64,000 nucleotides of DNA from Cordylochernes scorpioides (lineage: Eukaryota > Arthropoda > Arachnida > Pseudoscorpiones > Chernetidae), in the NCBI GenBank assembly GCA_030710605.1, contig CP092868.1, positions 29,708,011 to 29,772,010 of the forward strand, read 5' to 3'. A program made the position numbers and the translations under genes. Positions within the stretch are counted from its first letter, which is position 1. Every line of letters starts with the position of its first letter. Positions 3,762 through 36,638 of the stretch are shown here, in pieces. The notes below the pieces were generated by a model. The model searched no databases and was not told the origin of the DNA. It saw only the letters and a list, made by a program, of their open reading frames with translations.

Positions 3762-3934
3762 TACGATATTAAGGAACATATATCTATTAGTGTATCCTCT
3801 AAGAAGTATTAATTTACTATGTTATGACGTGATTGTTACCGAGAAATCACAACAATCTAGCGAGCAAGCGTACGAAGTGAACCAAGCGAATTCTTATAGC
3901 GAACAAGCAATAAAAGCGAATAAACCAAGCAAAC

Positions 3935-3975
3935 ATGGGCTGTTTTGGCTTCTTCAAGTGTTGTCGGCGCAAGAA
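3935..3975 (+). CDS. first coding exon, MGCFGFF peptide, copy A
   Basis: ATG is followed by 13 full codons (MGCFGFFKCCRRK) and two bases, AA, before a perfect donor GTAAGTC at 3976. If the donor is not used, the frame closes at once as a 14-residue peptide ending in KK, because the donor supplies the TAA. Gly2 and Cys3 form a classic N-myristoylation plus palmitoylation context, and the CCRRKK tail is polybasic, suggesting membrane attachment. The exon is conserved in copies B and C. Splicing to E1 (starting with G at 8067) restores a Lys codon and continues in E1's open frame. The 5' leader is rich in AAGCGA/AAGCAA repeats. The protein family was not recognised. Confidence 0.6.
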
Positions 3976-4347
3976 GTAAGTCAACAATCTCCCAAAACAA
4001 ATTCATCTCCACTATGCACCAGAAGCAAATGTGCATTTTATCGGAAAAAATAACTTTAAAAAAAAAAACGAAAAATATCTAACCAACTATTTATTATTCT
4101 AATTTGATTATCAAATCACATTTTTTGTTTGTATTCAGTGAATTTATCATAATATTCTGGTCTAAAGTAGAAGGAATGTGATATACAAGGATGAAAGAAA
4201 TGTTATAAAGAAAAAATTAAAGAATAATCTTTGGAAAACACACTTTTATAATAAGAACATATAACAAATGAGAAAATATATGGAATCAGTTGGTGATATT
4301 AATAAAAATTTTCCCTGATAAGTTGAACAAACCACCTGGAGCAATAA

Positions 4348-4425
4348 ATTATCAAAAGAACAAAATCTTGAGGCGAAGTTTCTTGTAATTTCTTCTACAC
4401 CTCAACATTTTGTTCTTTTGATAAT
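4348..4425. repeat. inverted repeat with 18-bp arms
   Basis: ATTATCAAAAGAACAAAA and its complement TTTTGTTCTTTTGATAAT flank about 42 bp. The same arrangement is present in copy C near 50120-50200. It could form a hairpin in the intron-1 transcript. Confidence 0.6.
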
Positions 4426-4710
4426 GTTCCCTTGTCTATTAAAAAATAGCTTGAACCATTATATGTATATTATCACGTAGAAAATTAGGAAAGATAAACT
4501 TCAGGATGACGCAGCAATATATTTAAGAAACAAGTACAAACTAAAATTGATAAAATATAAGAGAATCAAAAAGGGAAGTATACAGAGTTGTAATATCATT
4601 CTCTTCGCGATGAACGTTATGGCCCATTGTATGTATTACATCCCAAACACGATGTGACGCCAGTTATCTCTGTCTTGAGCTCGTATACAGAGTAGCAAAA
4701 TATCAAAGTG

Positions 4711-4790
4711 TATATATAAGGGCGTATCTGGATCTGTAAAGACAAAAACATTTTTTCTTCTTTACAGATCCAGGTATGCTCTTTTATATA
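4711..4790. repeat. intronic hairpin, copy A
   Basis: Arms of about 33 bp (GGGCGTATCTGGATCTGTAAAG and a near-complement CTTTACAGATCCAGGTATGC) surround a short A/T-rich loop. The element is conserved in copy C at 50491-50582, where the arms extend to GTTTATATAAAA. Confidence 0.7.
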
Positions 4791-5239
4791 AACTTATTTG
4801 ATGAATCGCCTTTTGACTCAAAATAAATATCAAAATTAATAATGAACATAAATACTTCGTTACAAAATTATTTAATTAAATATTTTCGTTGAATATTCAT
4901 TGGAAAAACAATTATCTATTTCAGAATATATTACAGAATATTACTACTTATATGTTTCAAGTTGAATATATCAACATTCTGTTCGAACCTTAAACACAGT
5001 GTGTTCAGCCACCGAGAATTTGACAGAGTAGCAAAATATAAACGTCAAAATTGATAATTTGTTAATAAAATAATTAATACTTTTCTACAATATCAATATT
5101 ATTTTTTAATAAAACCTTTAAGTAATGTATTTTCATTTAAATAATACAAATATATTTTTTAAAAAACACTTTTTTAGTGTCAACAGCAATAAAAAGAAAT
5201 GCTGACATTCAAATTCACGAGCTTATATCTATAACTAGG

Positions 5240-5812
5240 CGAATGACCTGGCTTCGCCCGAGAAATCCCTTGGGTGCAATTTCCTTCATACTAAAAGTAT
5301 ATCAATAATAAATATTAGAAGTGCCATAGAATAGCAATACAGAAGTAACACATAAACTACAGGAAAAAGGTGTGTATGATGGCATAAATTGTATTATATT
5401 AGGGTTTAGGTATTTGATTTAATTAATATAGTTGATATAATAATATATATATTTATTTATATTATATATCATATAAATGAGTTTTAAAAATTGTAAAAAA
5501 AAATGCATCGGCCGGGAATCGAACCCGGGCCGCCCGCGTGGCAGGCGAGCATTCTACCACTGAACCACCGATGCTTTAAAAAATGGCCATATTTAGGTAT
5601 TCATTCCATTCCGGATTAGTCCGCGTAAAAAAAGTTCTTCAAATGAAAAAAAGAAATAGCCAAAAACACTAATCAAAATGCAGCCGAAAATTTTCCTCAC
5701 GTTTATAAAAAGCGACATGCAAAATTTGGTACCAATTGGTTCAGTAGTTTTTGAGTTTATCGCGAAACAGACAGACAGACATTGACTTTTATATATAGAG
5801 AGATAGAGATAG
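5240..5812 (+). repeat. degenerate retroposon segment around the tRNA-Gly gene
   Basis: TGACCTGGCTTCGCCCGAG near 5246 and the ending TTTATCGCGAAACAGACAG(ACAG) with TTGACTTTTATATATAG near 5755-5800 are phrases seen at the 3' ends of LINE-derived and SINE-like repeats in many invertebrates. The tRNA-Gly gene lies between them. Assignment is from recognition of these phrases only. Confidence 0.35.
5504..5574 (-). tRNA. tRNA-Gly: tRNA-Gly (anticodon GCC)
   Basis: The complement reads GCATCGGTGGTTCAGTGG (acceptor and D arm), then CTGCCAC with anticodon GCC, then GGTTCGATTCC in the T arm and a matching acceptor GCCGATGC with discriminator A. The length of 71 nt is normal for animal tRNA-Gly(GCC). 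The A and B boxes are intact. It lies in intron 1 of copy A, antisense to the gene. Confidence 0.95.
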
Positions 5813-6016
5813 AGAGTACTTCATTACTCAATTCAACCAATAAGATAAAAATATATTAAGCACTGTTTAAATAATTAACTTACGCTGATTGGATGCTTAA
5901 GGCCACGTGATATTAGCGAACCAATCAAAGGGCAAACAAACTGGACACCATATACAAAAGCAACAAACTATATGGTGATGACACTTAATATTGAGATACT
6001 AAATCTTCGTGATACA

Positions 6017-6256
6017 CAGTAGAACCTCCATGAGAAGACACTCGCGCTAGAGGACACTTCTCTACAAAGGACAGTTTTCATTTGCAAAATATTTTTTTTT
6101 TTTTACTATTTAGTAACTCCAGTAAGAGGACAGAAAAGAGATTCGGCCTGCAAAAAGCAGAGCAATGGACGATATAGACTCCAAGTAAGAGGACACCTTT
6201 CTCTAAAGGACAATTAGACTCTGTAATTAAGTGTATTTTACAGGGAGGTTCTGCTG
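6017..6256. mobile_element. Tigger-like MITE
   Basis: The ends CAGTAGAACCTCC and GGAGGTTCTGCTG are inverted copies of the CAGTAGAACC terminus typical of pogo/Tigger elements. The interior repeats a GAGGACACCTCTC theme. It is one of at least eight copies in the window and has no transposase. Confidence 0.8.
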
Positions 6257-7239
6257 TATATAAAACATGAAAGAATTTCTCGCCGTCAATAAAAGGATTG
6301 AAATGGCTCAGCATTTTGTTTGCACTTGAAATGAATATGTAAATTAGTAGTTGAGGGGACTAATATTCATCGCGAAACCATCATACCAACTCCTCTCGGA
6401 CCTAAATTCATGAAAATATGTAAATTTAGGTGAAACAAATATATCCACACCAGCCATAATTACAACTCCTTCTGACCTATCTTTATACTGTGTTGATATT
6501 TTACCGGATAGAACAAATATTAATATGGCCCTCATCAGCCTTTTTAGAACAAATATTGACGATAAATGCAGAAAAAAGTTAGCTACATACAAAACTTTTC
6601 ATCTTTATTTATAAAAATAAGGATATGTAAATGTATTTTTATATCATTTGGATATGTGACAAGAATTTATAGATGTTGGTTCTTTTTTTCCGATATTAAA
6701 ATTTTCAAGGCACTTGGAATGTTTGCTCATTTTTCAACATATAGTACCATATATATCTTAATTCTACAAGGCTACAGTTCTACAATACTAAACTTGTACA
6801 ATCTCTCATAACGGAATATGAAAAATGTTTAGAAAGTCTAATTCAACAAGTTCATGACTTCACAGCAGTGTCACCAATTTAATCAACCAGAGGTTACTTA
6901 AACTATTATATTGTGTTCAATAATTCCCTTATATATAACTCTGAGATCTATTGGATTTTAAAGGTATAGATAATACATGACAAAGCTAAACATATTCCAA
7001 ATAAATATATTTTCACAACATATTGAGCCCATTATCTTGTATTTATTATGAAAGACAAACACTTTGTTGCTTGATTTAATTATTGAACTAAAAAACAATT
7101 ATTGTTTATTGTGTAATGAAAAATAAAGCTTATTGGTTGATTGAGGTCACATGATAGTAGAGAACCAATCAGCTAGAGAATAAACCTCTACCCCTTACCC
7201 ATATACACAAATACATATAAACTGATTAAGACATATAGT

Positions 7240-8066
7240 ATATTAGATGGCAGAAAAGTAATGGGAATTGAAGAGAAGATAAAGATTTGTTCTGATAACT
7301 ACTGTATGATGGAGAGGAGATTCGAGATAGCTGTTAACACAATCTTGCTAGAGGGATTTATCTAATGTTTCTTTGCAGAAGTAGAAGGTTCGTCGTGAGC
7401 AAGGATAGACGCAAATGATGACATGACAAACATTTTGTATTTCGGCTCTAACTTGAATAACATAGGCATATCCTTTTGTTAATGCTCATTTAGCATCAAC
7501 TGCAAGCAATGCAATGAAACTACAGACAACTCTACTTACATTTAGAGAGTAACGCTGATTTTATTAAATAGAACTTTCAAATTATTGAAAAAAAACATCT
7601 TGGAGATTTTGGGTATAGATTATATCTATCTGGAAGGTTGGTTATTGGTGTAAGTGAAAGCATTATGTTTTTAAGGAGCATCGGGGAACTCTTTATACAT
7701 GACAAAACTAGGGATTGACTCCACTCCCCTCCGATACGTAAGGTAAAGAATGAATGGCTTATATATTCCCAGGATATTGTCACGAAGAACTTTGAAGTTA
7801 CACCTGAGACATTGATCCTGAGTCTACTGACTCTTTGCTTTGCATATTGTTTTGATTGACTGAGAGAGAATATTGATATCATGTCGATTTGAGATACTGA
7901 TAGAGAGAGAGAGACGATGATAGATTGGGTTTGAGGGAAGGTTCTCTATATCTGAATATGTATAGTGTATTATTGGGAGTTATAGATATATATAGCAATT
8001 GTGTAGTGATAGTATTGAATGCAATGAGATATATCTGTACTGACAGTATTCTTTCCGTGGTTACAG
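7240..8066 (+). repeat. conserved 3' part of intron 1 upstream of E1
   Basis: This is clearly similar to about 21230-22044 (B) and 52510-53327 (C), including GATAGATTGGGTTTGAGG and the acceptor context GTGGTTACAG. It probably belongs to the intron, but I cannot exclude an alternative promoter. Confidence 0.5.
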
Positions 8067-8518
8067 GACAAAGGGTCGCAAACAGGGCACTCACACCCCC
8101 AATGTGACACCACCACCCACACCCCTCACCCCCGGCTCGCCATCCCCATACTTTAGCGCCATAGACACTAAGTTCTATGAGCCGGGGTTCCTCCACTGTA
8201 GGGTATACATGCCAGAACCACTTTGGGGGGGTTCACTGGACAACACCCTAAACACCGACATGCGCCGCCCTACATTCTCTAGGCACACGTCTGAACACTT
8301 CTGGGTGGAGACAGCAGTCTGCTGGCCCATACTCAACAGAGATGTTGGGTTTGGGTCATCGGGCTCTGTCCCCTCCCTTCTGTAGGGCCCCACTCTCACA
8401 GCCATAGGTCCAACAGCACAAGACAACATCCACTCACATAACATGCGCGGAACTTCCATCCTATCCTTACAGCAACACGGATGTTGTCTTCTTGGAGCGC
8501 CGCTGTGGACCTTGGCAG
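8067..8518 (+). CDS. GC-rich exon E1, copy A
   Basis: This 452-nt exon is bounded by GGTTACAG and CAG/GTAAGC, and is much richer in G+C than its surroundings. In the frame entered from exon 1 it encodes TKGRKQGTHTPN, a Pro/Thr-rich run (PPPTPLTPGSPSPYF) and a stretch with YEPGFLHCRVYMPEPLWGG. It reaches TAG at 8383-8385, giving a 119-residue product with exon 1. The same frame stays open after the TAG to the donor, leaving phase 1. All three copies keep the length, frame and TAG, with about 4-6 differences per pair over 452 bases. Large minus-strand frames overlap it, but lack splice or start support. Function is unknown. Confidence 0.55.
8420..8490. repeat. 12-bp perfect inverted repeat in E1
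   Basis: AAGACAACATCC at 8420-8431 and GGATGTTGTCTT at 8479-8490 are exact complements, separated by 47 nt that include a pyrimidine-rich cryptic acceptor ending at TTACAG (8472). Both arms are unchanged in copies B and C. In RNA this could form a stem that hides the cryptic acceptor. Confidence 0.6.
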
Positions 8519-8921
8519 GTAAGCTATCTCTTTTTTCTCATTCTTTTATATATACTTTTAACTGTAGAAATTTTAAAAGTTTAAAGTCTATTAATATTCT
8601 AATAAGAAAAATATTGCATATTTCAAATTCTGTTCCTATTTTTAAATATATTTTTTTTCTCTAGAGAAATTAATAACTATTTATATATTTTTTAAAAGTA
8701 TAATTTGGTTTAAGATACTCACATGAAATATATAGAAAGAAATTTTCATTGCTAATTCACTAATTTACTAAAGTTATAACAAACTAAAAATAAGACAGTG
8801 TTATAAGTTTTCATAATGTAATTATATATCAATAAAATAAGTTAAGACTGTATTTATTAAATACGTAATACTATAAATAAGTTCGAAGATAGGTTTTAAT
8901 TCATGTTTTTGTAACGTGTAG

Positions 8922-9008
8922 TGGGGGCAGCGATCAAGCGTCGTTCTGGCAGCGACGACGCCTATGATCATGATGGCGCCCCAACGTGGGTGTCATTAAC
9001 TACTTCCG
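8922..9008 (+). CDS. exon E2, copy A
   Basis: The exon is bounded by AACGTGTAG and CCG/GTAAGTA and is 87 nt, phase 1 in and out. With the G carried from E1 it reads VGAAIKRRSGSDDAYD, then HDGAPTWVSLTTS, without a stop. The GAPTW part aligns with PTG...W in E4, E6 and E7, so E2 looks like a diverged member of the same exon family. Whether it is translated depends on the upstream TAG in E1. Confidence 0.5.
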
Positions 9009-9357
9009 GTAAGTATAGTTAGGTTAATCGAATAAACCTAGTTTCATATGTTCCTTAGAAATTGGTATAACTGGTTAAGACCGCTGTGCAAGAATGATTA
9101 TAAAAAGACTTAATTTATATATAAGTGGATATTCTGGGTCCATTAGGAATTTTATTGAATAACAATTTGTTTTAAAATAATTTTCTGAATATACCTATTT
9201 AATACTTTCTTTTTCAAATATTTGTGGATTGCTCAGTGTTTTTTTTTATTATTTTTTTTTTGAATGGTATTCTATAAGTATGATTTTTAATTTAAATAAT
9301 CTCTAATTATTTACTAATTATATATATTTAGAATGTTGAGATAAATTTGTGTTGCAG

Positions 9358-9479
9358 GAGAGGAAGTGCCGTTTGGGCAATGGCAGCATTTCTAATGGGG
9401 CCATTCTGTGAAACCAGACTGGCATCTTGTCAGCCATGGCTGGTGTAACGATGGCCTCGACATTGAGAAATTTTCCTCT
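9358..9479 (+). CDS. exon module E3, copy A
   Basis: The module is bounded by GTGTTGCAG and TCT/GTAAGTAAC and is 122 nt. In the phase-1 frame it begins GEEVPFGQWQHF and then stops (TAA), and the stop is conserved in all three copies. It could therefore be an alternative short C-terminus. Another frame is open for about 30 codons (AAFLMGPFCETRLASC), but with no phase support from E2. Coding status is uncertain; exon identity is better supported. Confidence 0.4.
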
Positions 9480-9808
9480 GTAAGTAACAAGTCAAGTTGA
9501 CCACTTACACTCTATTTATCTAGGCATCAATAATGGCTATCAAAGACCTAACTATGTAAAATTATTGATGTACAAAATTGATAACATTTGAAAACATCAG
9601 AAGTGATATAAATATTTTCAGTTCATACATGAACCACTTTTATGTAATTTCACTATTATAAGTGTTATATTGATATCGTTGCAATATGGTCAAATCCTTA
9701 TAAAGAACACTACAATATATAGATATCTTAATTAATAAATCAAAATTATCATAAATATAAAAGACGAATTTTTAACTGATTGTTATAAAAATGTATTTTG
9801 TATTGCAG

Positions 9809-9954
9809 GAGAGGCCTTGTCGTTTGGGGGGGCGGCAAGTCCTCTGCTATCTAACTAGCAATAAAGCTTGGGGCGGATGGGCGAAGATTTGGGCATCTTC
9901 GTCTGCAACATCTGTTGGGACTACAGCATCTAACAATGGAGCTTCTTTCTATCT
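9809..9954 (+). CDS. exon module E4, copy A (frame-shifted)
   Basis: Good splice sites (TATTGCAG and TCT/GTAAGTA) bound 146 nt. The start GEALSFGG matches the shared module motif. One extra base in the G-run after GTTT then throws the frame off. In the downstream frame it stays open as SNKAWGGWAKIWASSSATSV and on to GASFYL, matching the intact exon in copy C. This may be a pseudo-exon, or it may use frameshifting. Confidence 0.4.
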
Positions 9955-10212
9955 GTAAGTACAGTTGTATTTTTCAATTAAACTTAGTTTAACGCCATAT
10001 TCCTTTCCACAATAGGAAATTAATGAAAATATCTCCTTGTTCATCATATCTAATTTTCGTAAATTTCAATTTTCTTAATAGATGCTCTCAATCATCTTCA
10101 TATTGCACACAGAATTCTCTTAAATAGCATCATCAATATGACATATTGTGATTAATCGTTAATTTTGTATCATTAATATTTTAAGTGTGTTAAGAATAAT
10201 TTTGTATTGCAG

Positions 10213-10357
10213 GAGGGGATGAGCCGTTTGGGCAGCGGCGAGTCCTCTCTACATTTCTAAGGGCGCCACAATGTGAAACTGGACAGGCAAATATCCGCAC
10301 ATCTTTGTCAGCCATGTCTGGTGGAACTATGGCGCCGACATTGAGGAATTTTCCTCC
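10213..10357 (+). CDS. exon module E5, copy A
   Basis: The module is 145 nt, from TATTGCAG to TCC/GTAAGTA. In the phase-1 frame it is fully open: GGDEPFGQRRVLSTFLRAPQ, then CETGQ and on to PTLRNFPP. The same frame is open in copies B and C, with only 3-4 base differences per pair. If the donor is not used the frame closes immediately at the TAA inside GTAAGT. It leaves phase 2, so it does not join in frame to another phase-1 module, which fits alternative rather than serial use. Confidence 0.5.
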
Positions 10358-10629
10358 GTAAGTAAAAATCTTAGTTATTCTGTGTCTATCTTTAAAAATT
10401 GAGCTAATGTCAAATAATGTTATATAACACGTTAAAACATAAAAGTTATCATCAGATAATATTTTGGTTTATAAAAAAAAACTTTAAAGTCTTTCTGTTT
10501 TCTATTGCTTTATTTTTTATAATTCTCTTAATAAATGTTATTTATTTGTAGCATGATCAATCTCTTTGGAAATTATTATATTTTGATATCCAATAATTCA
10601 TTTCCTTCAATCAAAAGCTCCCACTCTAT

Positions 10630-10960
10630 CTCAATGCTTTAGGACAGGTCAGGGAAGGTGTGCTGAGCTGATGAAGTTATGGGGCTACACCAAAGATCCA
10701 AATTGTGCCTGCAACGTCCCACAATCAATGTCCCATATACTAGATGACTGCCCGCTGTACAAATTCAATGGAGGAATCTCCAATCTCCATTCTGTCACCC
10801 CGGAAGCCCTGAACTGGCTGAAGGCCTTGCCTCTCAGACTTTAATGACCGATATGTCCTCACTTCTTTTTTCTAGATTTAATTCATTTTGTCTCCTCTCT
10901 AATTGTAAATACGCTGCTGTATCACCTCATAAGCATAAATAAAAATATTTTAATGAAAGT
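10630..10960 (+). pseudogene. RTE-like LINE 3' end inserted in copy A
   Basis: The frame from about 10640 reads GQGRCAELMKLWGYTKDPNC, then CNVPQSMSHILDDCPLYKFNG and ends LKALPLRL with TAA. This is the C-terminal zinc-knuckle region and end of RTE-clade ORF2 (H-D-CPL motif). A short 3' UTR and a CATAAGCATAAATA tail follow. It interrupts the E5-E6 intron of copy A only, so it inserted after the duplication. Confidence 0.85.
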
Positions 10961-11069
10961 TTTAAACTATAATAACTTTTTTATATATTGAATATATGAA
11001 TGTTAATCATTAGAGAGATTTCAAAATAAAGTGTATCAAGAAGGTTTAGGTATATTTTTGTGATGGCAG

Positions 11070-11190
11070 GAGAGGTAGAGCAGTTTGGGGGAGCGACGAT
11101 ACCTCTATCATGTTACTGGCGCCACAACGTGGGGTTTGAAGGGTGAAAATTTGGACGGCTTCGTCCACAAAACTGCGGCATTTTTCATAT
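11070..11190 (+). CDS. exon module E6, copy A (frame-shifted)
   Basis: The module is 121 nt, from GATGGCAG to TAT/GTAAGTA. The phase-1 frame begins GEVEQFGGATIPLSCYWRHN and meets a TGA. Shifting by one base at the five-G run gives a fully open frame, ERRYLYHVTGATTWGL and on to KTAAFFI, which aligns with the PTG...W part of E4 and E7. The ancestral module was probably coding and this G-run is one base too long. Confidence 0.4.
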
Positions 11191-11817
11191 GTAAGTACAA
11201 CCGAATCTACCCTCGTTTATAGGCCATTACAATGTCTGATTACAAATATCTAATCTATCATAAATTATATTTTTGTAAAATATCGATAAAATTGAAAAAC
11301 GCAAATATCTAGATGATTTTATTAGACCCTAAATCAATATTGTGAATTCCCTTCTTGTTTTCATAACCAGTATATCATAAATAGAAAGTTATAATTTGTT
11401 TAATACATTCACATTAATAATTGTAACCCAGCCTTTTTCTTTTAATGCAATTATTATAATATAATATTCATTGTCCTATTATATGTCTTGATAAAGACTT
11501 TTGTGTGATATATTTTAAATTATTTAGTAACTCAAATTTAGGACATCAATGATATATTTAGTTTATATTAAGAAAATTCAAAACTATTATAGACGTTTAT
11601 GATTCTTTTTAAAAATAAACAATTTATACTGCCCTTACTGAAATGGAAAAATTAATGGGAGGGCCTGGCTTATCAGTGATATTTTTTATTTTTAAAATGA
11701 ATCGTACGCGTCTATAATAGTTTCAAATACTCATAACAGATTGCGCGTTAATGCATCATAATGGTTTATATCAAACAGATTATGATTTGTATATTCATGA
11801 TTTATTTTGTGATGCAG
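11191..11817 (+). other. E6-E7 intron, copy A
   Basis: AT-rich sequence between donor GTAAGTAC and acceptor GTGATGCAG. It contains a fragment of the dispersed MITE-like family near 11640-11680 (GGGAGGGCCTGGCTTATCAG). No coding exon is seen. Confidence 0.5.
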
Positions 11818-12083
11818 GAGGAGCGGAGTCGTTTGGGCAGCGCGACGTTTCTCATCATCCAACTGGCGACATAACTTGGTTATTGAGTTGCGAAGTTTTA
11901 GACTTCGTCAGCGATGCATCGCGAACTGTGGTGATGCTTATTGGAGCAGATTTCCAAGTGCAAGAAAAGATGAATTGTAATGACCAAATGCAGGTCATTA
12001 ATGTCGCATTATCTGGAACCTTTATCATATGTCCAAGAATCGCATATTTGGAAAAGTTTCTAATATCATGTTCTTCAAGCTGA
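11818..12083 (+). CDS. terminal exon E7, copy A
   Basis: The acceptor GTGATGCAG is followed by a phase-1 frame open for 87 codons. It starts GGAESFGQRDVSHHPTGDI and ends ISCSSS with TGA. No GTAAGT-type donor follows, so this is probably the last coding exon. The opening motif aligns with E4 of copy C (GEALSFGERQVLCYPTGN), which argues that both are coding relatives in the same frame. No known domain, transmembrane segment or signal was recognised. Confidence 0.5.
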
Positions 12084-13498
12084 ATGAGAAAGGAGATAAT
12101 CATTACGGTCATCTTTGAAGAGAATCTCTTTGCTCAAGATAATAAGAAATGGGAATGATATCTTGTGTGGTTGGCACATCTTTCAAGAGTTTAAATGTGA
12201 AATTTGCCGCAACCTTATGCCTTTATGAACTTAGCAAATATTTGCTTCATTAATTGCTCCTGAAACAATTGCAGGTCAATGCGAATTTGATTATGTTAAA
12301 AATGAAGATTGATTATTTTGGCAATTCAAGATGTTCAATATATTGATTAATTTTCCAAGTTTTCGTGAAATCTGCGTGATGCAGCAGTATTCCGTTCAAC
12401 AACAAGAGTAAAATGGAATGAAGAAATTTTAAATCTCGAAACTCAAAAATGCTTCCTTAAATCTCAAAATATTGCTTGAAAATTATAGACGAATGATATT
12501 AAAAGCTAACATGGCTTCATCTTCGCTCTGAAAAATCAATATGTTATGAAATGTTGCCATCATTAATCAAAATTAAATTCTATTTGAATATTCAATAGAC
12601 CAATACAAACTCAATTTCATCTTTATTTATTCAGTAATTATTAGATATTTGATTGCCTGAAAGCTTTATAAAATATTCAAATACATAGGTAAGCGTGCTG
12701 TCTCGTGAAAGCCAAAATGATCTCATGCGGAGATATTAACAACTCAGCTAAAATTTCGACTCAACGTAGAATCACTAAAATTTGTTTAATGTTTGGATTT
12801 GAGAAGTTTCCTAATTCCTTTCTAATTCAGAAAAATAATTGCAATATCATTGTGCCTGAAGATCAAGATATAGTAATATTGCTCTATATGTTTGGCAAGA
12901 ATAGCGAATGCTCATAAGAACTCTTTTGCTGCTTTTAATGGAAGCGCGCAAATGCCAAAATCAAAAATTATATTGAGCTATCGTTAATTTGGTTTCCTCA
13001 TCTACTAATCCTATCACGAGAGCTCTCCAGTTGATTCCCATATAGCTTTATATAAAAGCCTCAAGATATTGAAAATCAAATACTTTCTTTTTTTTCAAAC
13101 AACTATCATGAGAGTTCATATTCCTTCCTTCCCAAGAATTTAGTGATTTGACTTTTTTTTTTTGGAAAAGATAATCTCTTCAAAATACCTCATTGCATTT
13201 TTCAATAATTCCCACTGCAATCAATTTCAACTGTCTTGAAGCTGCTATAATCAATTCAATGCCTGTCATCAATGAAGATTTCTATCGTATCAATATTTGC
13301 CAATTCAGCCCAAATTTTCGCAACCAGTAAAGAAGCTTTATAATAAATGCAAGAAGATTAATCTGCAATCATTAGAAAATCCTAATAAATCTCGTTTTTA
13401 GAACATTCTATAATGGATATCAAATGCTGCCAATGCCATTTCATAGAGCAGTGTTTTTCTCCTAATTTGTTTGATGCCAAGGCATAAAAACTTAATAT
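12084..13498 (+). other. downstream region or 3' UTR, copy A
   Basis: AT-rich sequence between E7 and the 60-bp array, closely matched to about 56760-58320 in copy C. Phrases such as GGAAGCGCGCAAATGCCAAA are conserved. AATAAA-type signals are scattered and none stands out. No convincing gene was seen. Confidence 0.5.
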
Positions 13499-14602
13499 AT
13501 CAAGGAATAATCAATCAACTTATTATATAACTCTCTTGCTCGCATACAAAGTTCATCCTATCAAGGTATAATCAACCAACTTATTATATAACTCTCTTGC
13601 TCGCATACAAAGTTCATCCTATCAAGGAATAATCAATCAATTTATTATATAACGCTTGCTCGCATACAAAGTTCATTCTATGAAGGAATGACTCCATCAA
13701 CTTATTATGTAACGCTTGCTCGCATACAAAGTTGATCCTATCAAGTAATGTCCCAATCATCTTATTATGTAACGCTTGCTCGCATACAAAGTTCATCCTA
13801 TCAAGGAATGTCCCAATCATCTTATTATGTAACGCTTGCTCGCATACAAAGTTCATCCTATCAAGGAATATCCCAATCAACTTATTATATAACGCTTGCT
13901 CGCATACAAAGTTCATCCAATCAAGGAATGCCCCAATCAACTTATTATGTAACGATTGCTCGCATACAAACTTCATCCTATCAAGGAATGTCCCAATCAT
14001 CTTATTATGTAACGCTTGCTCGCATACAAAGTTCATTCTATCAAGAAATGCCCCAATCAACTTATAATGTAACGCTTACTCGCATACAAAGTTCATCCTA
14101 TCAAGGAATATCCCAATCAACTTATTATATAACGCTTGCTCGCATACAAAGTTCATCCTATCAAGGAAAACCCCAATCAACTTATTATGTAACGCTTTCT
14201 CGCATACAAAGTTCATCCAATCAAGGAATGTTCCAATCAACTTATTATGTAACGCTTGCTCGCATACAAAGTTCATCCAATCAAGGAATGCCCCAATCGA
14301 CTTATAATGTAACGCTTGCTCGCATACAAAGTTCATCCTATCAAGGAATGTATCAAACAACTTATTATTTAACGCTTGCTCGCATACAAAGTTCATCCAA
14401 TCAAGGAATGCCCCAATCAACTTATAATGTAACGCTTGCTCGCATACAAAGTTCATCCTATCAAGGAGTGTCCCAATCAACTTATTATGTAACGCTTGCT
14501 CGCATACAAAGTTCATTCTATCAAGGAATGCCCCAATCAACTTATTATGTAAAGATTGCTCGAATACAAACTTCATCCTATCAAGGAATACCCAAATCAT
14601 CT
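13499..14602. repeat. 60-bp tandem array, about 18 units, copy A
   Basis: Units of 60 bp share CTTGCTCGCATACAAAGTTC, ATCCTATCAAGGAATG and CCCAATCAACTTATTATG. The first few units are 61-62 bp because of a TCTCTTG variant. Because 60 is a multiple of three, most frames stay open on both strands. The forward frame from 13748 gives a 20-residue repeat (RIQSSSYQGMSQSTYYVTLA) for about 280 residues, ending at 14674. Variants between units change residues in every frame, so coding is not shown. An array of 13 units occurs at the same place in copy C. Confidence 0.9.
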
Positions 14603-16110
14603 AAATGCTTGCTTGCTTTTAAAAAGCTTTATTCCCAAGTGCCCCTTGGTAACTTCTGCCAAATTTGTCATTGACTCTAAATATTAGAATTTTACAATGC
14701 GCATTATATCAGAATTCAAGCCAGACTTTGTTCTTGTAAATTATAATTCCAACATCCATCATTGCTTACCAGTTTCTTCTCGTCTCCATATGGCTATGAA
14801 AACCATGGACCCAGGATTCATTAATGCACAGACCATAAGACTAAAACTTTTATGATTCCAGATTCTTTGGCGGTCATCAGCTACCGAACATATCATATTA
14901 ACTCTAAATATTTATTATCCCAGAAATCTCTCCCTCTTCAATGCTCGCCATAATCTGCTGATCTTTACATTGCCATGAATGTCATCATCTTAGCTTTCTA
15001 TACTAACGAGAATGCCAGTAATAATCTACCAAGCCCTGTATTGCTATGATTATCATAATCTAAAGAATTTCCAATGCCCCAATAAGCTGCCAAGTCCTAT
15101 ATTACTATGAAATTCATGAACCCAATGCCGATTATAAGCCACAATATATATATATATATGATGTGATCATCATGATACAAAAAATTGTCAATACCATACT
15201 GCTATGAATACCATGCTCCCCCCCCCCCCCCATACGCCTCCAAATTCCATATTACTATGAAAGTCACGAACCCAATGCCGAGTATGAGGCACCAAACCCC
15301 ATATTCCTATGATTTTCCTGAACAGAAAATTGTCAATGCCCCCATAAGCTGTCAAGCCCCATATTACTATCAAAGTCACGAACTCAATGCCCATTATGAG
15401 CCATCAAGCCCCACAATGCTATGGTTATTATGATAAACAGAATTGTCAATGCTATATTGTTATATTTATAATAATCCAAAGAATTATCAATGTCCCAAAT
15501 GGCTGCTAAGTCCCATATTACTATGAAAGTCATGTTATCAATGCCAGTCATGAGCTGCCAAGCCCCGTATTACAATTATTATCATGATATAACGAGTTCC
15601 ATAAGTTGGCAAATCCCAAAACCCTGGTACGAAATACCAATCCACATGTTCTATGATTATCATAATCTAAATATTCTTCAATTTCCCTTTTTAAAATTCA
15701 AAGTTTCATATTGCTATGAATGTTTAATCGCCGAATTCTGAAATCCCCTACAATCTGATAAGCTACACGTAGCTATTGAATACCATGGTGCCAAACAATC
15801 TCAATGCCTACCATAAACAGCCATGTTCCCCATTGCTATAAATTCCTTGTTAACAACATTTTGCATTGTCCGCCATACGCTGCCAAGACCTATATTGTTA
15901 TAAATATATAATACCAATATCTATCAAAGCTATCTACAGTTTCCAAGACATATAATACAATGTATATTATTATTTCCGGTTTTCTCCAATGCCCATCTTT
16001 ATCTACAAAGGATATTTTGCTATGAATGCTATCTTCCAAATATTCCACAATGCTCATCATCAGCTGTTATATCTCAAATTGCTTATGATTCTCATGATTC
16101 AAACAATCTA
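14603..16110 (+). repeat. degenerate short-period repeats, copy A
   Basis: Repeated phrases CATATTACTATGAAAGTCA, CCCAATGCC and ATAAGCTGCCAAG recur at roughly 60 bp with many indels. Broken frames read like CQAPYYYQSHELNAHYE. A run of C at 15218-15230 and a TA run near 15145 lie within it. Similar sequence follows the array in copies B and C. It may be the decayed extension of the 60-bp array. Confidence 0.6.
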
Positions 16111-16415
16111 AACATGAACTTTATTCATTTCCAAATTTTGTTTCAAACAGATAGGCAACCATCAGCTGCGCTATACCTTAAATGTATCATTATTCGATTG
16201 TTCTGGAAACATTTCAATCCCCCATTAACTTTTCCATTGATGCTGCAAGAATCCAAATTCAAGGAAATGTCTGGAGAGAAAATACATTGTATATGGAAAA
16301 TGAAATAAAAGGTTTAGAGCATATACTTGTGATAATATTTTTCATCATTTCACAAAATTTCAAATGTGGTTCTTGCAAGAATACATAACTAAGTATATTG
16401 AGCTCTTATTACAAC

Positions 16416-17510: not shown

Positions 17511-17551
17511 ATGGGCTGTTTTGGCTTCTTTAAGTTTTGTCGGCGCAAGAA
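17511..17551 (+). CDS. first coding exon, MGCFGFF peptide, copy B
   Basis: Encodes MGCFGFFKFCRRK plus a split Lys codon, ending at donor GTAAGTC (17552). It differs from copy A by Phe for Cys at position 9 and one silent change. Gly2/Cys3 and the basic tail are kept. The TATA block upstream is degraded compared with A and C. Confidence 0.55.
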
Positions 17552-18929: not shown

Positions 18930-19390
18930 ATTTTGTTCGCACTTGGTAATCTTGTGTGTCTTCGATAAAGTTCACTGTAATATATTTCACAGTTATTGTC
19001 TGTGAATCCCGATATACATGGTAAAAGGTACAACTTCCTTAAGTTTTGTTCACACTTGGTTATCTTGTGTGTCTTCAATAAAGGTCACTGTAATATCTTT
19101 CAGAGTTATTGTCTCAATCCCGATATACATGCTAAAAGGTACAACTTCCTTAAGTCTTGTTCATACTTGGTTATCTTGTGTGTCTTCAATAAAGGTCACT
19201 GTAATATATTTTAGAGTTATTGTCTGAATCCCGATATACATGCTAAAAGGTACAACTTTCTTAAGTCTTGTTCACACTTGGTTATCTTGTGTGTCTTCAA
19301 TAAAGGTCAAGGTAATATCTTCCACAGTTATTGTCTGAATCCTGATATACATGCTAAAAGGTACAACTTCCTAATGTTTTGTCCAAGAGT
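18930..19390 (+). repeat. tandem repeat, period 111-113 bp, about 4 units
   Basis: ACTTGGTTATCTTGTGTGTC recurs at 18941, 19054, 19165 and 19276, with AATCCCGATATACATG and AAAAGGTACAACTTCCTTAA between. A Tc1-like terminus phrase, ACAGTCATGGACAAAAACTA, lies just upstream at about 18851. The repeat may sit inside a decayed Tc1-like element. Confidence 0.8.
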
Positions 19391-22044: not shown

Positions 22045-22496
22045 GACAAAGGGTCGCAAACAGGGCACTCACACCCCCAATGTGACACCACCACCCACAC
22101 CCCTCACCCCCGGCTCCCCATCCCCATACTTTAGCGCCATAGACACTAAGTTCTATGAGCCGGGGTTCCTCCACTGTAGGATATACATGCCAGAACCACT
22201 TTGGGGGGGTTCACTGGACAACACCCTAAACACTGACATGCGCCGCCCTACATTCTCTAGGCACACGTCTGAACACTTCTGGGTGGAGACAGCGGTCTGC
22301 TGGCCCATACTCAACAGAGATGTTGGGTTTGGGTCATCGGGCTCTGTCCCCTCCCTTCTGTAGGGCCCCACTCTCACAGCCATAGGTCCAACAGCACAAG
22401 ACAACATCCGCTCACATAACATGCGCGGGACTTCCATCCTATCCTTACAGCAACACGGATGTTGTCTTCTTGGAGCGCCGCTGTGGACCTTGGCAG
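22045..22496 (+). CDS. GC-rich exon E1, copy B
   Basis: 452 nt with the same boundaries, frame and TAG (22361-22363) as copies A and C. Relative to A there is one Val-to-Ile change before the TAG and several silent changes. The frame after the TAG remains open to CAG/GTAAGC. The 12-bp inverted repeat is intact. Confidence 0.55.
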
Positions 22497-22904: not shown

Positions 22905-22994
22905 TGGGGGCAGCGATCGAGCGTCGTTCTGGCAGCGACGACGCCTATGATCATCATATTGGCGCCCCAACGTGGGCGTCATTAACTACTTCCG
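22905..22994 (+). CDS. exon E2, copy B
   Basis: 90 nt from ACGTGCAG to CCG/GTAAGTA, phase 1 in and out, one codon longer than in A. It reads VGAAIERRSGSDDAYD, then HHIGAPTWASLTTS, with no stop. The three-base length change preserves the frame. Confidence 0.5.
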
Positions 22995-23482
22995 GTAAGT
23001 ATATTTAAATTAATCGAATAAAAATCTAGCTTCATGTGTCATAGAAATTGGTATGACTCGTTATGACCGCTGTTCCAGAATGATTATAAAAAAGACTTAA
23101 TTCATATATAAGTGGATATTCTCGGTTCATTAGGAATTTTATTGAATAACAACTTGTTTTTAAAAAAATTTTCATAAAATTAATACTTTTGTATTGATAT
23201 GAAAATAGTCTTAAAAACGTGGAAGGAAATTTTAACTAAATTCCTGAAATGAATAAATAAAAATGTGTTCTGCTTGACACTAAAAAAAAAAAAAAACTTG
23301 TTTTTAAATACTTTTCTGAATAGACCTTTTTAATACTTTCTTTTTCAAATCTTTGTAGAGTGCTCAGAGTTTTTTTTTTTTTTTTTGAATGGCATTCTAT
23401 AAATATTTTTTTTATTTAAATGATCTCTAATTATTTACTAATTATATATATTTAGAATGTTGAGATCAATTTTGTATTACAG

Positions 23483-23604
23483 GAGAGGAAGGGCCGTTTG
23501 GGGAGCGGCAGCATTTCTAATGGGGCCATTCTGTGAAACCAGACTGGCATCTTGTCAGCCATGGCTGGTGGAACAATGACCTCGACATTGAGGAATTTTC
23601 CTCG
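23483..23604 (+). pseudogene. exon module E3, copy B, donor lost
   Basis: The acceptor TATTACAG and the GEEGPFGERQHF opening with its stop are present. The donor expected at 23605 reads GGAAAGT where A and C have TGTAAGT. This module cannot splice forward normally and could only be terminal. Confidence 0.5.
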
Positions 23605-23927
23605 GAAAGTAACAAGTCAAGTTGACCACTTACACTCTATTTATCTAGGCATCAATAATGGCTATCAAAGAACTAATTATGTAAAATTATTGATGTACAA
23701 AATTGATAACATGTGAAAACATCAGAAGTGATATAAATATTTTCAGTTCATACATGAACAACTTTTAGTAATTTCTCTATTAAGTGTTATTGATATCTTT
23801 GCAATATGGTCAAATCCTTATAAATAACACTACAATATATAGATATCTCAATTAATAAATCAATATTATCATGAATATAAACACAAATTTTTAACTGATT
23901 GTTTTAACGATGTATTTTGCATTGCAG

Positions 23928-24073
23928 GAGAGATCTAGTCGTTTGGGGGAGCGACAGGTCCTCTGCTATCCAACTGGCAATAAAGCTTGGGGCGATTGGG
24001 CGAAGATTTGGGCAACTTCGTCTGCAACATCTGTTGGGACTACAGCATCTAACATTGGAGCTTCTTTCAATCT
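23928..24073 (+). CDS. exon module E4, copy B (frame-shifted)
   Basis: 146 nt with good sites (CATTGCAG, TCT/GTAAGTA). The phase-1 frame hits TAG after GEI. Another frame reads ERSSRLGERQVLCYPTGNKA, then WGDWAKIWATSSATSVG and on to GASFNL, matching copy C after the G-run. The five-G run is one base longer than in the open copy. Confidence 0.4.
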
Positions 24074-24339
24074 GTAAGTACAGTTGTATTTTTCAATTAA
24101 ACTTAGTTTAACATCATATCCCTTTCTAAAATTAGGAAATTTTTGGAAATGTCTCCTTGTTTATCATCTCTAATTTTCCTAAATTTCAATTTTCTTAATA
24201 GATGCTTTCAATCATATTCATATTGCACACAGAATATATTCTCTTAAATAACATTATCAATATGACATTTTCTGATTAATCTCTTTGAATTTTTTATCAT
24301 TAATATTCTAAGTATGTTAAGAATAATTTTATATTGCAG

Positions 24340-24484
24340 GAGGGGATGTGCCGTTTGGGCAGCAGCGAGTCCTCTCTACATTTCTAAGGGCGCCACAATG
24401 TGAAACTGGACAGGCAAATATCCAGACATCTTTGTCAGCCATGTCTGGTGGAACTATGGCGCCGACATTGAGGAATTTTCCTCC
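24340..24484 (+). CDS. exon module E5, copy B
   Basis: 145 nt from ATATTGCAG to TCC/GTAAGTA. The phase-1 frame is open throughout: GGDVPFGQQRVLSTFLRAPQ and on to TLRNFPP. The following intron resembles the E3 intron of the same family (AAGCCAAGTTGA) rather than the E5 introns of A and C, suggesting exchange between modules. Confidence 0.5.
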
Positions 24485-24790
24485 GTAAGTAAAAAGCCAA
24501 GTTGATTAATAACTCCCATTTTTATCTTCCTGACAACTATTTCAACTAATGTCATATACCAAATATCTCACTATAAAAAAATTTTGCTGAGCAAAATTTA
24601 TAACTTGCGAAAACAAATATTCATTTAAATATTCATTTTACTTATTGTATAATTTATAAAAGTTTTATAAAGTGTTTAATTAAAAATATTATAACATTTT
24701 TTTTTTAATTGGCAATCACTGTTTTAGAGTTTAGTCATTTTTGAAAGCCTTTTCAATTGTTGTTTTCGCACAAATATGCAAAATTAGAAT

Positions 24791-25135
24791 ATGGAAATAA
24801 TTATTCAAACATTAAATGATAAGTTGGATGAAATTTATAACTATTTTGACAAAAAAGTTCAACAAAATCAAAAAAATCTAACTAAAAATGATATTACATT
24901 TTTGTCAACTATGGTTAGGCAAACCAAGGATGGTATTTCAACTTTAAAAGAAATAAATAACCAAGATATATTGGAACTAATGAAAACAACAATTACAGAT
25001 GTTATGGACCAAAAACTGAAAGGGATCCAAGATGAATTAGTTAAAACAACTCCAACATATGCTCAAGTAGCTCGTACAGAAACATCACAAGATTACATTA
25101 AAAAAAACAAAATTTACATAAGGAGTTCACAATAA
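24791..25135 (+). CDS. LINE ORF1, N-terminal part
   Basis: 114 codons beginning MEIIIQTLNDKLDEIYNYF, rich in Lys, Gln and Glu and probably coiled coil, ending with YAQVARTETS and then TAA. Such a coiled-coil N-terminus with a YAxVA-like end precedes the gag-like domain in many LINE ORF1 proteins. The stop overlaps the next ATG in TAATG. Confidence 0.6.
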   Translation: MEIIIQTLNDKLDEIYNYFDKKVQQNQKNLTKNDITFLSTMVRQTKDGISTLKEINNQDILELMKTTITDVMDQKLKGIQDELVKTTPTYAQVARTETSQDYIKKNKIYIRSSQ

Positions 25136-25878
25136 TGGCAACACCTATAAATGTGGAAGATAATACAAAAATGTATCAAACTATATCAAGCAAAGTTAAA
25201 AAGCTTAGGGACGAAGGAAAAAAAATAAAGATTAACAAAATTATAAATGCTAGGAAATCTGTAATAATAAAGACCCCTACAGAATCAGACATGGAATCTC
25301 TAAATGGTGAGTTAGGCAGGGCAGAGGAGCTCGCAAATATCAGCAAAATTTTTATCCCCAAACCAAGAGATCCTACAGTAGTAGTCAAAAATGTTAATAA
25401 ACTTACAGAAACCGCTAATTTTACTAAAACAATCTGCAGTATGAACCCTGAATTGAACGAAATGGAAAATGATATCCATGTTCTGTTTAGCATGAAATCG
25501 AACACGCCCCACCACAACATAGTTCTTAGGGTTTCTCCAAAGGTTTACCAGATCCTTAAAAATATGAATAATAAATTATATACTGACTTTGAACGCTGTT
25601 TTGTGGAAGATAAGATTCTGGTAAAACAATGTCAGAAATGCCTTCAATTTAATCCCAACCATAAATTGGCCGATTGTACTAACGTCGAGATATGCAAATT
25701 ATGCGGCGCGCAAGGAATTCATGATTGTTCAAAAATTTGCAATTGTTATAACTGTCTAAAACATCCTAAATTTAGAAACTCGCCGAATCATAGAGCTAAT
25801 TCCTCGGACTGTCCTCTATACAAAATACAGATAGACAGAATTATCCAACGAACGAGATATCATCCAACCGACAATTAG
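25135..25878 (+). CDS. LINE ORF1, gag-like zinc-knuckle protein
   Basis: 247 codons. The C-terminal third has cysteine-rich knuckles: CQKCLQFNPNHKLADC, then CKLCGAQGIHDC and CNCYNCLKHPKF...H...C. This is the triple CCHC pattern of Jockey/I/R1-type ORF1, an RNA-binding nucleoprotein. It starts at the ATG overlapping the upstream TAA. It may be a separate cistron or the remainder of a frameshifted single ORF1. Confidence 0.75.
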   Translation: MATPINVEDNTKMYQTISSKVKKLRDEGKKIKINKIINARKSVIIKTPTESDMESLNGELGRAEELANISKIFIPKPRDPTVVVKNVNKLTETANFTKTICSMNPELNEMENDIHVLFSMKSNTPHHNIVLRVSPKVYQILKNMNNKLYTDFERCFVEDKILVKQCQKCLQFNPNHKLADCTNVEICKLCGAQGIHDCSKICNCYNCLKHPKFRNSPNHRANSSDCPLYKIQIDRIIQRTRYHPTDN

Positions 25879-25922
25879 GCAAATTTCGCAGCTAAGATTT
25901 TTGTTTATTTAGTTTGAATATC

Positions 25923-26886
25923 ATGCAGGGAAAAGGAATTAAATGTTTACAACAAAATGTAAGAAAAAGTATCTTGGCACTGAATGAGCTTCAAGCTTCT
26001 ATAAAAGACAAACCCACCAGATATCATCCTAATACAGGAACCTTATCTGATTGATAGAGATGTAATTTTCGATTTGGAATCTCAAATAGTGCATTCAACG
26101 ACATATGAACAAATTTACACTGCAACGATCTTTATGAATAAGAGTTTAAAATTTAATAAAATCAATAAATTCACAAACTCCTTTTGTACAACCACTTCTT
26201 TAAATTCAGCAAAATCAAATACTATTATCGCAAACTTTTATATACATCCACATAGATTTAATGACACTCATCGAAAATTTATCCAAGAGCTTCTGGAGAC
26301 CTACAATCAACAACCTATTATACTATGTGGTGACTTTAATTCTAGACACCCAGTCTGGTTTGATCCGACAACAAACTCCAATGGTTTCAAATTCCACTCC
26401 ATCATAGATGAACATAACCTATTTATTCATAATCTTAAGATACCCACCTGCCGAAATTCTAGCTTTATAGATCTTACGATTTCAAACAAAAAATTAATAA
26501 GTTTGGTACAAAACTGGAAGACGACTATATTGACGCACATTTCAGATCACGTAGCAATAACCTTTGACATTTATCACAATTTTAACAGGCAAAGGACAGT
26601 TCAAAACTCAACATGGAAATTTATAGAAAAAGATGCTGATTGGAAAACATTTACCGAAAAAATAGCAATACAAGACGTAGATAATATTATCACCATGATA
26701 AACCACGCGTCAAACATCAAAGATATTGACAACATTGTAAAGACTCTCACACAAATAATTAAAGAGGCAGCTTATCTGTCACTAAATGTCAAGACAAGAA
26801 GCGGAAATCATAAAACAAATACATACTGGTGGGATGGGAAGCTGGAGAAAATGAAAAACGATTTCCACTATATTAGAAATTTGTAA
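25923..26886 (+). pseudogene. LINE ORF2, endonuclease domain
   Basis: Starting near the ATG at 25923 (IKCLQQNVRKSILALNELQ), a frameshift near 26015 precedes ILIQEPYLIDRD. Then come PIILCGDFNSRHPVWFDP and ISDHVAITFDI. These are the N, E, GDFNxxH and SDH motifs of the exonuclease-endonuclease-phosphatase fold, which nicks target DNA. An in-frame TAA at 26884 ends this part. Confidence 0.8.
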
Positions 26887-28116
26887 TACCGACATGGAAA
26901 GGTCCTTGAAAAGACCTATAAATCAATGAGAAATAAATATTTAAATAAAAGTAAAAAGGCAAAAAAAGCGAGTTGGAGAATTTTTATAGAAGAAAGTCAT
27001 TCAAATAACTCATTTGGTAATGCTTACAGGATATTCAAGTCATTGAGATCGAAAAATAGAAATTTAGGATTACCACTAATAGATAATTTACCAGATCATT
27101 TAAAGACCGACAAAATAAAAGGTTTAATGAACGATCTATTTCAGGATGATAATGGAGGTTTGGATAAAGATGATCATATTTTGATTAGAAATTATACGCC
27201 TAAATATAAAAATAAAAGTAGTGTTTATATCGAATCTAAGGAAATAGAGGAAACAATTTTAAAAACAAATATTTAAAAAGCACCGGGCCCTGATTACATT
27301 AGTAACAATATGATTAGACAGGCTAAAATAAAAATAATCCCAATTCTGCATAAATTATTCAATAAATGTATAGAAATGGGATATTATCCGGATGAATGGA
27401 AAAAATCATTCTTCAAAATAATTCCAAAACCAGGCAAAACGAATTATGAAATAAATAAAAGTTATAGACCTATATCATTGACATCTAATCTATCTAAAAC
27501 ATTTGAGAATATAATAAAAAATAAATTAAGTAACTATTATTTAGAGAATAATTTAATGAGCTCAAGGCAGCATGGTTTTATGAAATCTAGATCAACAATT
27601 ACTGGAATGGATAAAATTATAGAAACTATATTGAAACATAAACAAAAAGAATTGACTTCCTTGATAGCTATAGATATTGCGGGTGCATTCGACAATGCAT
27701 GGTGGCCTGCTATTATAAAAAGAATGGATAATGATGATGTTCCTTCAGATTTAATACGGATCATAAAATCTTATTTGAATAATGAAAGGGAGGTGAAATT
27801 TACATACGAATCAGAAACTTTTTATAAGAAACTAACTAAAGGATGTCCACAGGGTGGACCTTTATCTCCACTTCTATGGAATATTTTGCTAAATGATTTG
27901 TTGATAAATTTTGATTCAATGAATGCAGATATTATATGTTATGCAGACGACGTTACAATAATTTGCTGGAATAAGACTATTGAAGGACTAAAAACCGCAA
28001 GTGAATACACCTTAAATTATGTGATCCAATGGTGTAATAGAAATAAATTAACGATCAGTACAGAGAAGACTAATATGCTATACCTACATAACAGACAAAA
28101 AATCCTATTAAGGTAA
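26887..28116 (+). pseudogene. LINE ORF2, reverse transcriptase domain
   Basis: The frame continues from the endonuclease part past the TAA at 26884 and is broken again by TAA at 27274-27276, in the middle of NI-stop-KAPGPDYI. RT motifs follow: KSYRPISLTSNLSKTFE, then IAIDIAGAFDNAWW, GCPQGGPLSPLLWN and CYADDVTIIC. YADD is the catalytic site. A frameshift near 28105 separates it from the C-terminal part. Confidence 0.85.
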
Positions 28117-28129
28117 TAACAATATAATA

Positions 28130-28972
28130 ATGCCGGTCAAGCAAGTAAAAATTCTGGGAATGAAATTTTCTAATCACAAATGGAAAAACAAAGTTAACTT
28201 TACACCGCATGTTAATGATATTCTGTGTAAGGCAGGACGTATGAAAAATTTATTATGTTCACTAAGTGGCAATATGTGGGGTTTAGACACTGAAAAGAGG
28301 TTAACTTTATTCAAAACAATCATTAGGCCTGTACTTACATACGGTTCTGAAATTTGGTTCAAATATTTAAACAATCGTTGTAAACAAAAACTGAACTCCA
28401 TGCAGTACCAGATCATTTTATGGGCAGTTAGAGCATACAAAACCACTTCATCAAACTGTGTGCATAGTTTGGCAAATTTTCCACTCCTAACAGACTATAT
28501 AGAATCCAGAATAATCAAATTTGATCTAGCTCAACTGTCCATTGAAGATCTAATTACTTACGAACCCCATGCTCCAAGTATAGTCAAATCATTCTTACAC
28601 GCAAAAATGAATGAAATTTTTGAGAACACTAATGAAATTTTCAGAAGCTTTTTCGTATTAGGAATTCCAAGATTTTTCCGTCCAAATTTTTATAATATCC
28701 AATTCATTACAGATCATGGCAATTTTGGGAAATTTTTGGCAACTATCGGCGCCGTGAAGGAACCAGGATGCTTCTGCGGAGGTGAAATTCAAGACGCGAG
28801 ACATCTACTTCTGGAGTGCCCAATTTTCCGGGATTTTAGGGAAAATAGATTTGGTCGTATTGGACAGCTTGATGAATTTGTAGACAAAAAAGAAAAGTAT
28901 AAAAATTTTGATCAATTTTGTAAATACATATACAACTTTCTCTTGAATTGGAAAAAAGAGAAGGAATCTTAG
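28130..28972 (+). pseudogene. LINE ORF2, C-terminal region with zinc knuckle
   Basis: About 280 codons following the RT. It includes VKILGMKFSNHKW, TLFKTIIRPVLTYGSEIWF and the knuckle CFCGGEIQDARHLLLEC. This is the usual thumb/linker and C-terminal knuckle of Jockey/R1-superfamily ORF2. It is out of frame with the upstream RT. Confidence 0.8.
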
Positions 28973-29119
28973 AAAAAAAAAAGAACTGCGATGCTTGCTC
29001 TGTGTGTTTTGCTTTGTTGTTTGTTTTTCTCTTTGGACAATTTTCTTTAGTTAATTTATGTAAAATAATGAATTGAACAGGATTGTATATAGCCGAATTG
29101 CTGTAATGCAGTGAAATGT

Positions 29120-29425: not shown

Positions 29426-29554
29426 GAGAGGTAGAGTCGTTTGGGGGAGCGATGATACCTCTATCAATCTACTGGGGCCTCAACGTGGGGCTTGACGGGT
29501 GAAAATTTGGACATTAATCTGCAATGTCTTGAGGAATTGCGGCATTTTTTTTAT
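29426..29554 (+). pseudogene. exon module E6, copy B
   Basis: 129 nt from GATGGCAG to TAT/GTAAGTA. It opens GEVESFGGAMIPLSIYW and then stops (TGA). After a one-base shift the later part reads YLYQSTGASTWGLTGENLD, aligning with the PTG...W modules, but this frame has its own TGA just upstream. Splice sites remain good. Confidence 0.4.
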
Positions 29555-29781: not shown

Positions 29782-29905
29782 TGTGCTGAGAACATGTAAG
29801 AAAACATGTACCTATGTTTTCCCACGTGACGCAGCGGAGCGTGACCTTGGCTGCACGGGTGAGTCAGTTGTTGTTTTGCTCTCTGTATAGATGGACATTA
29901 AAACA
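29782..29905 (+). repeat. Gypsy 5' LTR
   Basis: This 124-bp LTR starts TGTGCTGAGAACATG and ends ATTAAAACA. It differs from the 3' LTR at two positions, so insertion is recent compared with other elements here. The 5-bp target duplication GTCTT is at 29777-29781. The putative primer-binding site TGGTGGCAGCGATAACTGG starts at 29906, immediately after the LTR. Confidence 0.9.
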
Positions 29906-36618: not shown

Positions 36619-36638
36619 GTCTCCGTGGCGCAATCGGC

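Follow-up and report, generated by a model that had tools for sequence, protein, structure and literature searches.

A gene family with copies on three contigs of the genome of the pseudoscorpion Cordylochernes scorpioides is described here from a window of 64,000 nucleotides, the whole stretch of DNA that was analysed (contig CP092868.1, here C6, positions 29708011-29772010; AT-rich, 66%). The window holds three copies, designated A (starting at 3935 and running past 12083), B (from 17511 up to 33 kb) and C (from 49703 up to 56.9 kb), each comprising a 41-nt first exon, a 452-nt exon termed E1 and then six short exons (E2-E7) in identical order. The first exon and E1 are predicted to encode a short protein of 119 residues under purifying selection, with the reading frame ending inside E1. 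Across the family, copies of E1 resemble one another far more closely than do the introns beside it, and this includes its synonymous and post-stop positions. Why this single exon is preserved base by base is the unsolved part: either E1 RNA is under selection, or E1 is homogenised between contigs, or both.

The genome was searched for the first exon across 2.62 Gb in 24 contigs. Twenty-two first exons were found, a lower bound, as 40 of 6797 candidates were scored: 17 lie on C6, in the interval 29.71-30.29 Mb (16 from the genome search and copy B, which was absent from its results), three on C8 and two on C18. An exon-by-exon comparison bears out the original prediction, made from the letters of the window, that the exon set recurs in order three times; the "locally duplicated" family that it proposed stands as a family and as an array on C6, while "locally" is too narrow given the copies on C8 and C18. 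A full-length E1 is present in the fetched DNA of 20 of the 22 copies (16 on C6, four on C8/C18). The other two are L022 on C6, where E1 matches over 248 nt only and the start codon is changed, and L025 outside C6, with no E1 within 10 kb of its first exon. The short exons, referred to below as modules, were seen in 15 of the 17 C6 copies and four of the five C8/C18 copies, and were not found within the fetched stretches of L017, L022 and L025. Within the window, self-comparison shows roughly 90% identity between A and C along extended stretches, with B matching in blocks.

Reading frame and predicted protein

All exons of the three copies lie on the forward strand. The first coding exon of copy A (3935-3975; 22 copies aligned) starts with ATG (MGCFGFFKCCRRK), leaves in phase 2 and is followed by the donor GTAAGT; those of B and C lie at 17511-17551 and 49703-49743. 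Copy A E1 (8067-8518; 20 full copies aligned) continues the open reading frame (ORF) to a stop at 8383-8385, after which 133 nt are non-coding. In B and C, E1 occupies 22045-22496 and 53328-53779, with the in-frame stop at 22361-22363 and 53644-53646. Selection across many copies, which had been proposed as a check, is visible at the codon level and is not what neutral decay would leave. Variants in the first exon are 7 synonymous against 3 non-synonymous (expected synonymous fraction 0.24; 22 copies) and those in the E1 frame 21 against 20 (expected 0.284; 20 copies). Pooled, they give 28 against 23 (P 6.4e-5 with the fraction 0.284 applied to both exons), where the expected fractions give each transition four times the probability of a transversion. 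The ratio of non-synonymous to synonymous change (dN/dS), worked out from these variant counts, is roughly 0.33.

The stop stands at the same place in all 20 full copies, as TAG in 18 and as TAA in L021 and L026, and the predicted proteins have 119 residues in 18 copies, 117 in one and 85 in one. A 1-nt insertion upstream of the stop in L019 causes a frameshift and puts the stop out of frame. In 15 of 20 copies no further stop interrupts the frame between this one and the exon end. From the stop onward, variants fall 6, 9 and 10 by codon position; since this shows no codon periodicity, the stop is taken as real. Read-through was rejected on the same ground and because each of the four C8/C18 copies that have E1 carries a 1-nt deletion by which the end of the frame is shifted. 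The predicted phases therefore hold as far as exon 1 leaving in 2 and E1 entering in 2 and leaving in 1; later phases carry no coding meaning because the in-frame stop ends the frame inside E1.

The predicted protein has Gly2 and Cys3, a basic N-terminus and a middle rich in Thr and Pro, and its start carries what we take to be a putative N-acylation motif. Structure prediction for the 105 E1-encoded residues of copy C returned a mean pLDDT (predicted local distance difference test) of 46.2. Just as the original prediction could match the gene to no known family, Pfam gave no match up to E 10, the PDB a single hit at E 0.4, a protein collection one candidate with zero scored hits, and Rfam no known RNA family. 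A relative in viral contigs was considered and rejected, as two pattern matches there led to none, and a literature search on the N-terminal heptapeptide found no match.

Conservation and predicted folding of E1

Divergence was taken as the mean of pairwise comparisons, 120 within C6 and 64 between C6 and the four C8/C18 copies, with about 100 bases of intron upstream and 130 downstream of E1 for reference. The upstream intron diverges by 0.115 within C6 and 0.369 between contigs, and the downstream intron by 0.133 and 0.395. In E1 the corresponding values are 0.009 and 0.019 for codon positions 1 and 2, 0.034 and 0.051 for position 3, and 0.032 and 0.031 after the stop. Third positions and post-stop sequence are thus conserved beyond the introns about 7- to 12-fold between contigs and 3- to 4-fold within C6. 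The 6 pairs among the four C8/C18 copies themselves show a divergence of 0.39 in introns and of 0.02-0.03 in E1, and in 50-base windows across A, B and C identity goes from mostly 82-96% outside the exon, in the introns, to 94-100% within it. The 45 intron bases that immediately precede E1 are also conserved, at 0.036 within C6 and 0.081 between contigs. Minor alleles in E1 run from GC to AT in 41 cases against 11 from AT to GC, which argues that E1 is held GC-rich against AT drift; GC content at third codon positions is 0.64, against 0.18 for all positions of the next intron. Near-identity of one exon amid drifting surroundings suggests that the RNA, or the mode of copying, matters as well as the protein.

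E1 is also predicted to fold unusually well. The copy C exon (taken one base late) reaches -166.3 kcal/mol (z -4.15), a value that none of 100 dinucleotide shuffles equalled, and the ORF part of the consensus (315 nt) has a z of -4.56, with none of 150 codon-preserving shuffles as good. Against mononucleotide shuffles the z values are -5.9 for the sense strand and -2.2 for the antisense strand. The strongest hairpin lies within the ORF (8303-8377 in copy A), where the consensus has 31 predicted pairs and -47.8 kcal/mol; 16 of the 20 copies share this energy and the other four range between -44.1 and -48.7. A known microRNA family for this hairpin was rejected: the best resemblance in Rfam, to mir-641, scored 18.9 bits (E 1.1), far under the curated gathering score of 100.

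With some reserve, the explanation that we favour is a multicopy family that encodes a short protein, in which E1 would carry an RNA fold selected alongside that protein and the transcript would be prone to nonsense-mediated decay. The mRNA would thereby contain a structured, dual-function exon. A stop codon farther than 50-55 nt upstream of an exon junction exposes a transcript to nonsense-mediated decay, so with the E1 stop 133 nt before its junction, and further junctions downstream, these transcripts would be decay-prone. Protein output may in consequence be low and gated, and the protein may sit at membranes through its putative N-acylation. Tentative, and rather unlikely in full, is the more specific proposal that E1 is bifunctional, giving both an acylated peptide and a selected multi-hairpin RNA from at least 20 copies on three contigs, within a transcript that joins a module array to a satellite-like tail; the 75-nt hairpin might then possibly serve as a source of small RNA.

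Several points weigh against the favoured explanation. Pair-breaking variants are not depleted in E1, whether judged by the minimum free energy fold (25 against 26.4 expected, P 0.38) or the centroid fold (18 against 21.1, P 0.19), in a test of low power with 66 variants only. Nor does the hairpin have significantly fewer variable sites than the rest of E1 (7 of 75 against 56 of 377, P 0.27). With no bias of the variants towards keeping pairs, and no significant shortfall of variability in the hairpin, the structure rests on energy and not on covariation. Between contigs, post-stop divergence does not exceed its value within C6, which is unexpected under pure constraint, and the acylation and decay steps follow general rules.

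A serious competitor, to which we give somewhat less than an even chance, is concerted evolution: ectopic gene conversion, possibly GC-biased, would homogenise E1 across C6, C8 and C18, leaving an ordinary protein and no RNA function. The ratio of between- to within-contig divergence fits this, falling from about 3 in introns to 2.0 at codon positions 1 and 2, 1.5 at position 3 and 1.0 after the stop. Across the 452 columns of E1 there is not one fixed base difference between the 16 C6 copies and the four others (a single 1-nt deletion is fixed in C8/C18), whereas the two introns have 6 fixed columns in 98 and 7 in 139. The contrast in GC content between E1 third positions and the next intron counts here as well. 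Eight polymorphic sites in E1 are shared, against 2.3 expected by chance, although such sharing is also expected where few sites tolerate change, and the introns share polymorphisms too (17 and 26 sites). E1 distances within C6 show no correlation with flank distances (Mantel r -0.12, P 0.75; 14 of 16 copies, with L017 and L019 left out). Within C6, however, distances in the two flanks are likewise uncorrelated with each other (r 0.10, P 0.25), and when 18 copies are taken E1 correlates moderately with its flanks (r 0.48, P 0.0075), so that the flank-distance test cannot decide. Two points tell against exchange. Divergence within C6 drops at the exon edges, which favours constraint because introns 87-88% alike could still be drawn into the converted tracts, and the excess of folding over codon-preserving shuffles is left unexplained by conversion.

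Module exons, terminal exon and surrounding features

The six modules are paralogues of one another, all of them alignable to a single unit some 150 nt long. In copy A, E2 to E6 lie at 8922-9008, 9358-9479, 9809-9954, 10213-10357 and 11070-11190. Copy B carries E2-E5 within 22905-24484 and E6 at 29426-29554, and copy C carries E2-E6 within 54180-56063. Contrary to the proposal that E3-E7 are coding in a shared frame, 18 frame tests (six modules in three frames, C6 copies, 14-16 rows each) found no synonymous excess, and module lengths vary out of phase, E2 measuring 87, 90 and 91 nt in A, B and C and E6 111-129 nt among copies where its donor was found. Modules as coding exons were rejected for these reasons. 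The predicted agreement of splice sites was upheld, GTAAGT being the donor of 70 of 75 internal modules in the 15 C6 copies with modules in fetched DNA; in copy B, E3 has lost its donor, with GAAAGT in place of the GTAAGT of other copies. Acceptors are mostly of the type TTTTGTNNTGCAG. In the four C8/C18 copies GTAAGT or GTAGGT follows 10 of 16 modules, and module number or order differs within the stretches fetched. By these sequence features, E2-E7 are read as non-coding paralogues of one module in which donors are kept and phases are not. A TGGCGCC(C)CAACGTGGG-like string within modules (e.g. 8974-8990), which we presume to resemble the tRNA-Lys primer-binding site of retroviruses, may be a clue to their origin.

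E7, for which no donor was found, probably opens a terminal exon of several kilobases and runs on into repeat-rich sequence that includes degenerate repeats and a tandem array of 60-nt units. In copy A this probable exon spans 11818-16320, with the array at 13482-14600; an AATAAA at 16304 possibly marks its end, and the sequence there was not found in copies B or C. The start of the probable terminal exon of copy B (32873-33200) precedes a run of N from about 33202, and in copy C the part of this probable exon that is homologous to A covers 56601-59101 and includes the 60-nt array at 58313-59101. The same kinds of repeats follow E7 in the one C8 copy examined (L023, L038), where a related array is 74-81% identical.

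This architecture bears on a doubtful but possible alternative, a repeat-rich non-coding RNA gene whose transcript acts as RNA, in the manner of architectural or stress long non-coding RNAs (lncRNAs), with the small ORF secondary. Six non-coding modules with kept donors, a foldable E1, a stop that precedes several junctions, and a probable terminal exon whose 60-nt array and degenerate repeats are alike in kind between C6 copies and the one C8 copy examined all agree with it, whereas the clear codon-level selection on the ORF does not. It is very improbable that E1 is a poison exon whose skipping yields a true long protein from the modules. E1 and its intron edges are highly conserved with a stop inside, as is reported of poison exons (PMC11791180, PMC11357089), but protein-level selection sits in E1 itself, and joining the first exon directly to each module in turn gave products of 14-101 residues, with no more than 68 in all but two of the 80 joins (made in 14 of the 19 module-bearing copies; exons without a donor extended by 200 bases). 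Skipping E1 opened no long conserved frame in the copies tested, which largely refutes the idea. A decaying pseudogene array with exon-like repeats arising by chance is scarcely credible and is refuted as the general case, since 18 of 20 ORFs are intact, synonymous change is in excess and 70 of 75 donors are kept, although single copies may be dead, to judge from the L019 frameshift, the altered start and shortened E1 of L022, the lost E3 donor and large insertions of copy B, and the donors not found in 5 of 75 C6 modules.

Copy B is enlarged by two retroelements. Between E5 and E6 lies a non-long terminal repeat (non-LTR) retrotransposon (24.7-29.1 kb; 24700-29100) with, by eye, a zinc-knuckle gag-like part and endonuclease/reverse-transcriptase parts, and between E6 and E7 a Gypsy-like LTR element, also by eye (29.78-32.65 kb; 29782-32651), whose direct terminal repeats of 124 nt are 98% identical in the self-comparison. 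The E5-E6 intron of copy A contains a fragment (10641-10844) that looks, by eye, like the 3' terminus of an ORF from a retrotransposon. Upstream of each first exon is a leader of AAGCGAA/AAGCAA-like short repeats (e.g. 3858-3934) whose unit number varies between copies. The window further holds one tRNA-Gly(GCC) gene (5504-5574), seven tRNA-Asn(GTT) genes in groups of five and two with duplicated surroundings (36618-42053 and 62532-62956), and, from self-comparison, tandem arrays whose repeat period is close to 112 bases and to 190-200 bases (18931-19382 and 47653-48566). Seven telomere-type repeats were sought in 10 contig-end stretches and none was found.

Significance and comparison with known systems

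If the favoured explanation is true, this is a protein family for which the libraries searched hold no relatives, with a coding exon conserved beyond its introns even at third codon and post-stop positions. Either outcome would be useful, be it an RNA function inside a coding exon or an exon-bounded homogenisation between contigs, and with so many natural copies present in a single genome, comparison with related species could test which of the two applies.

Drosophila hsr-omega, with its spliced transcript, short ORF and long tandem repeats, resembles the E1 family in design and differs from it in being one gene only, whose ORF is far smaller. The E1 family, for its part, has demonstrable codon selection and at least 22 first exons. 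More broadly, hsr-omega and other repeat-rich lncRNAs are candidate analogues (PMC9865238, PMC9032817). The ultraconserved poison exons of splicing-factor genes, as reported (PMC11791180, PMC11357089), share with E1 a highly conserved exon with an in-frame stop before further junctions; they differ in that E1 is itself under coding selection and its skipping opened no long conserved frame in the copies tested. For the alternative of exchange between copies, a parallel is the mammalian BEX/WEX/GASP genes, whose coding and non-coding chimaerism is, by the title of the report, sustained by gene conversion (PMC1274310). There too parts of paralogues, non-coding sequence included, would be kept alike; the E1 copies are spread over three contigs of one genome, and the likeness drawn here is one of process. 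Synonymous constraint elements, as reported (PMC4014394), likewise combine very low synonymous change in coding sequence with a second function believed to lie behind it; the E1 pattern differs in being seen among paralogues of one genome, where exchange between copies offers an alternative.

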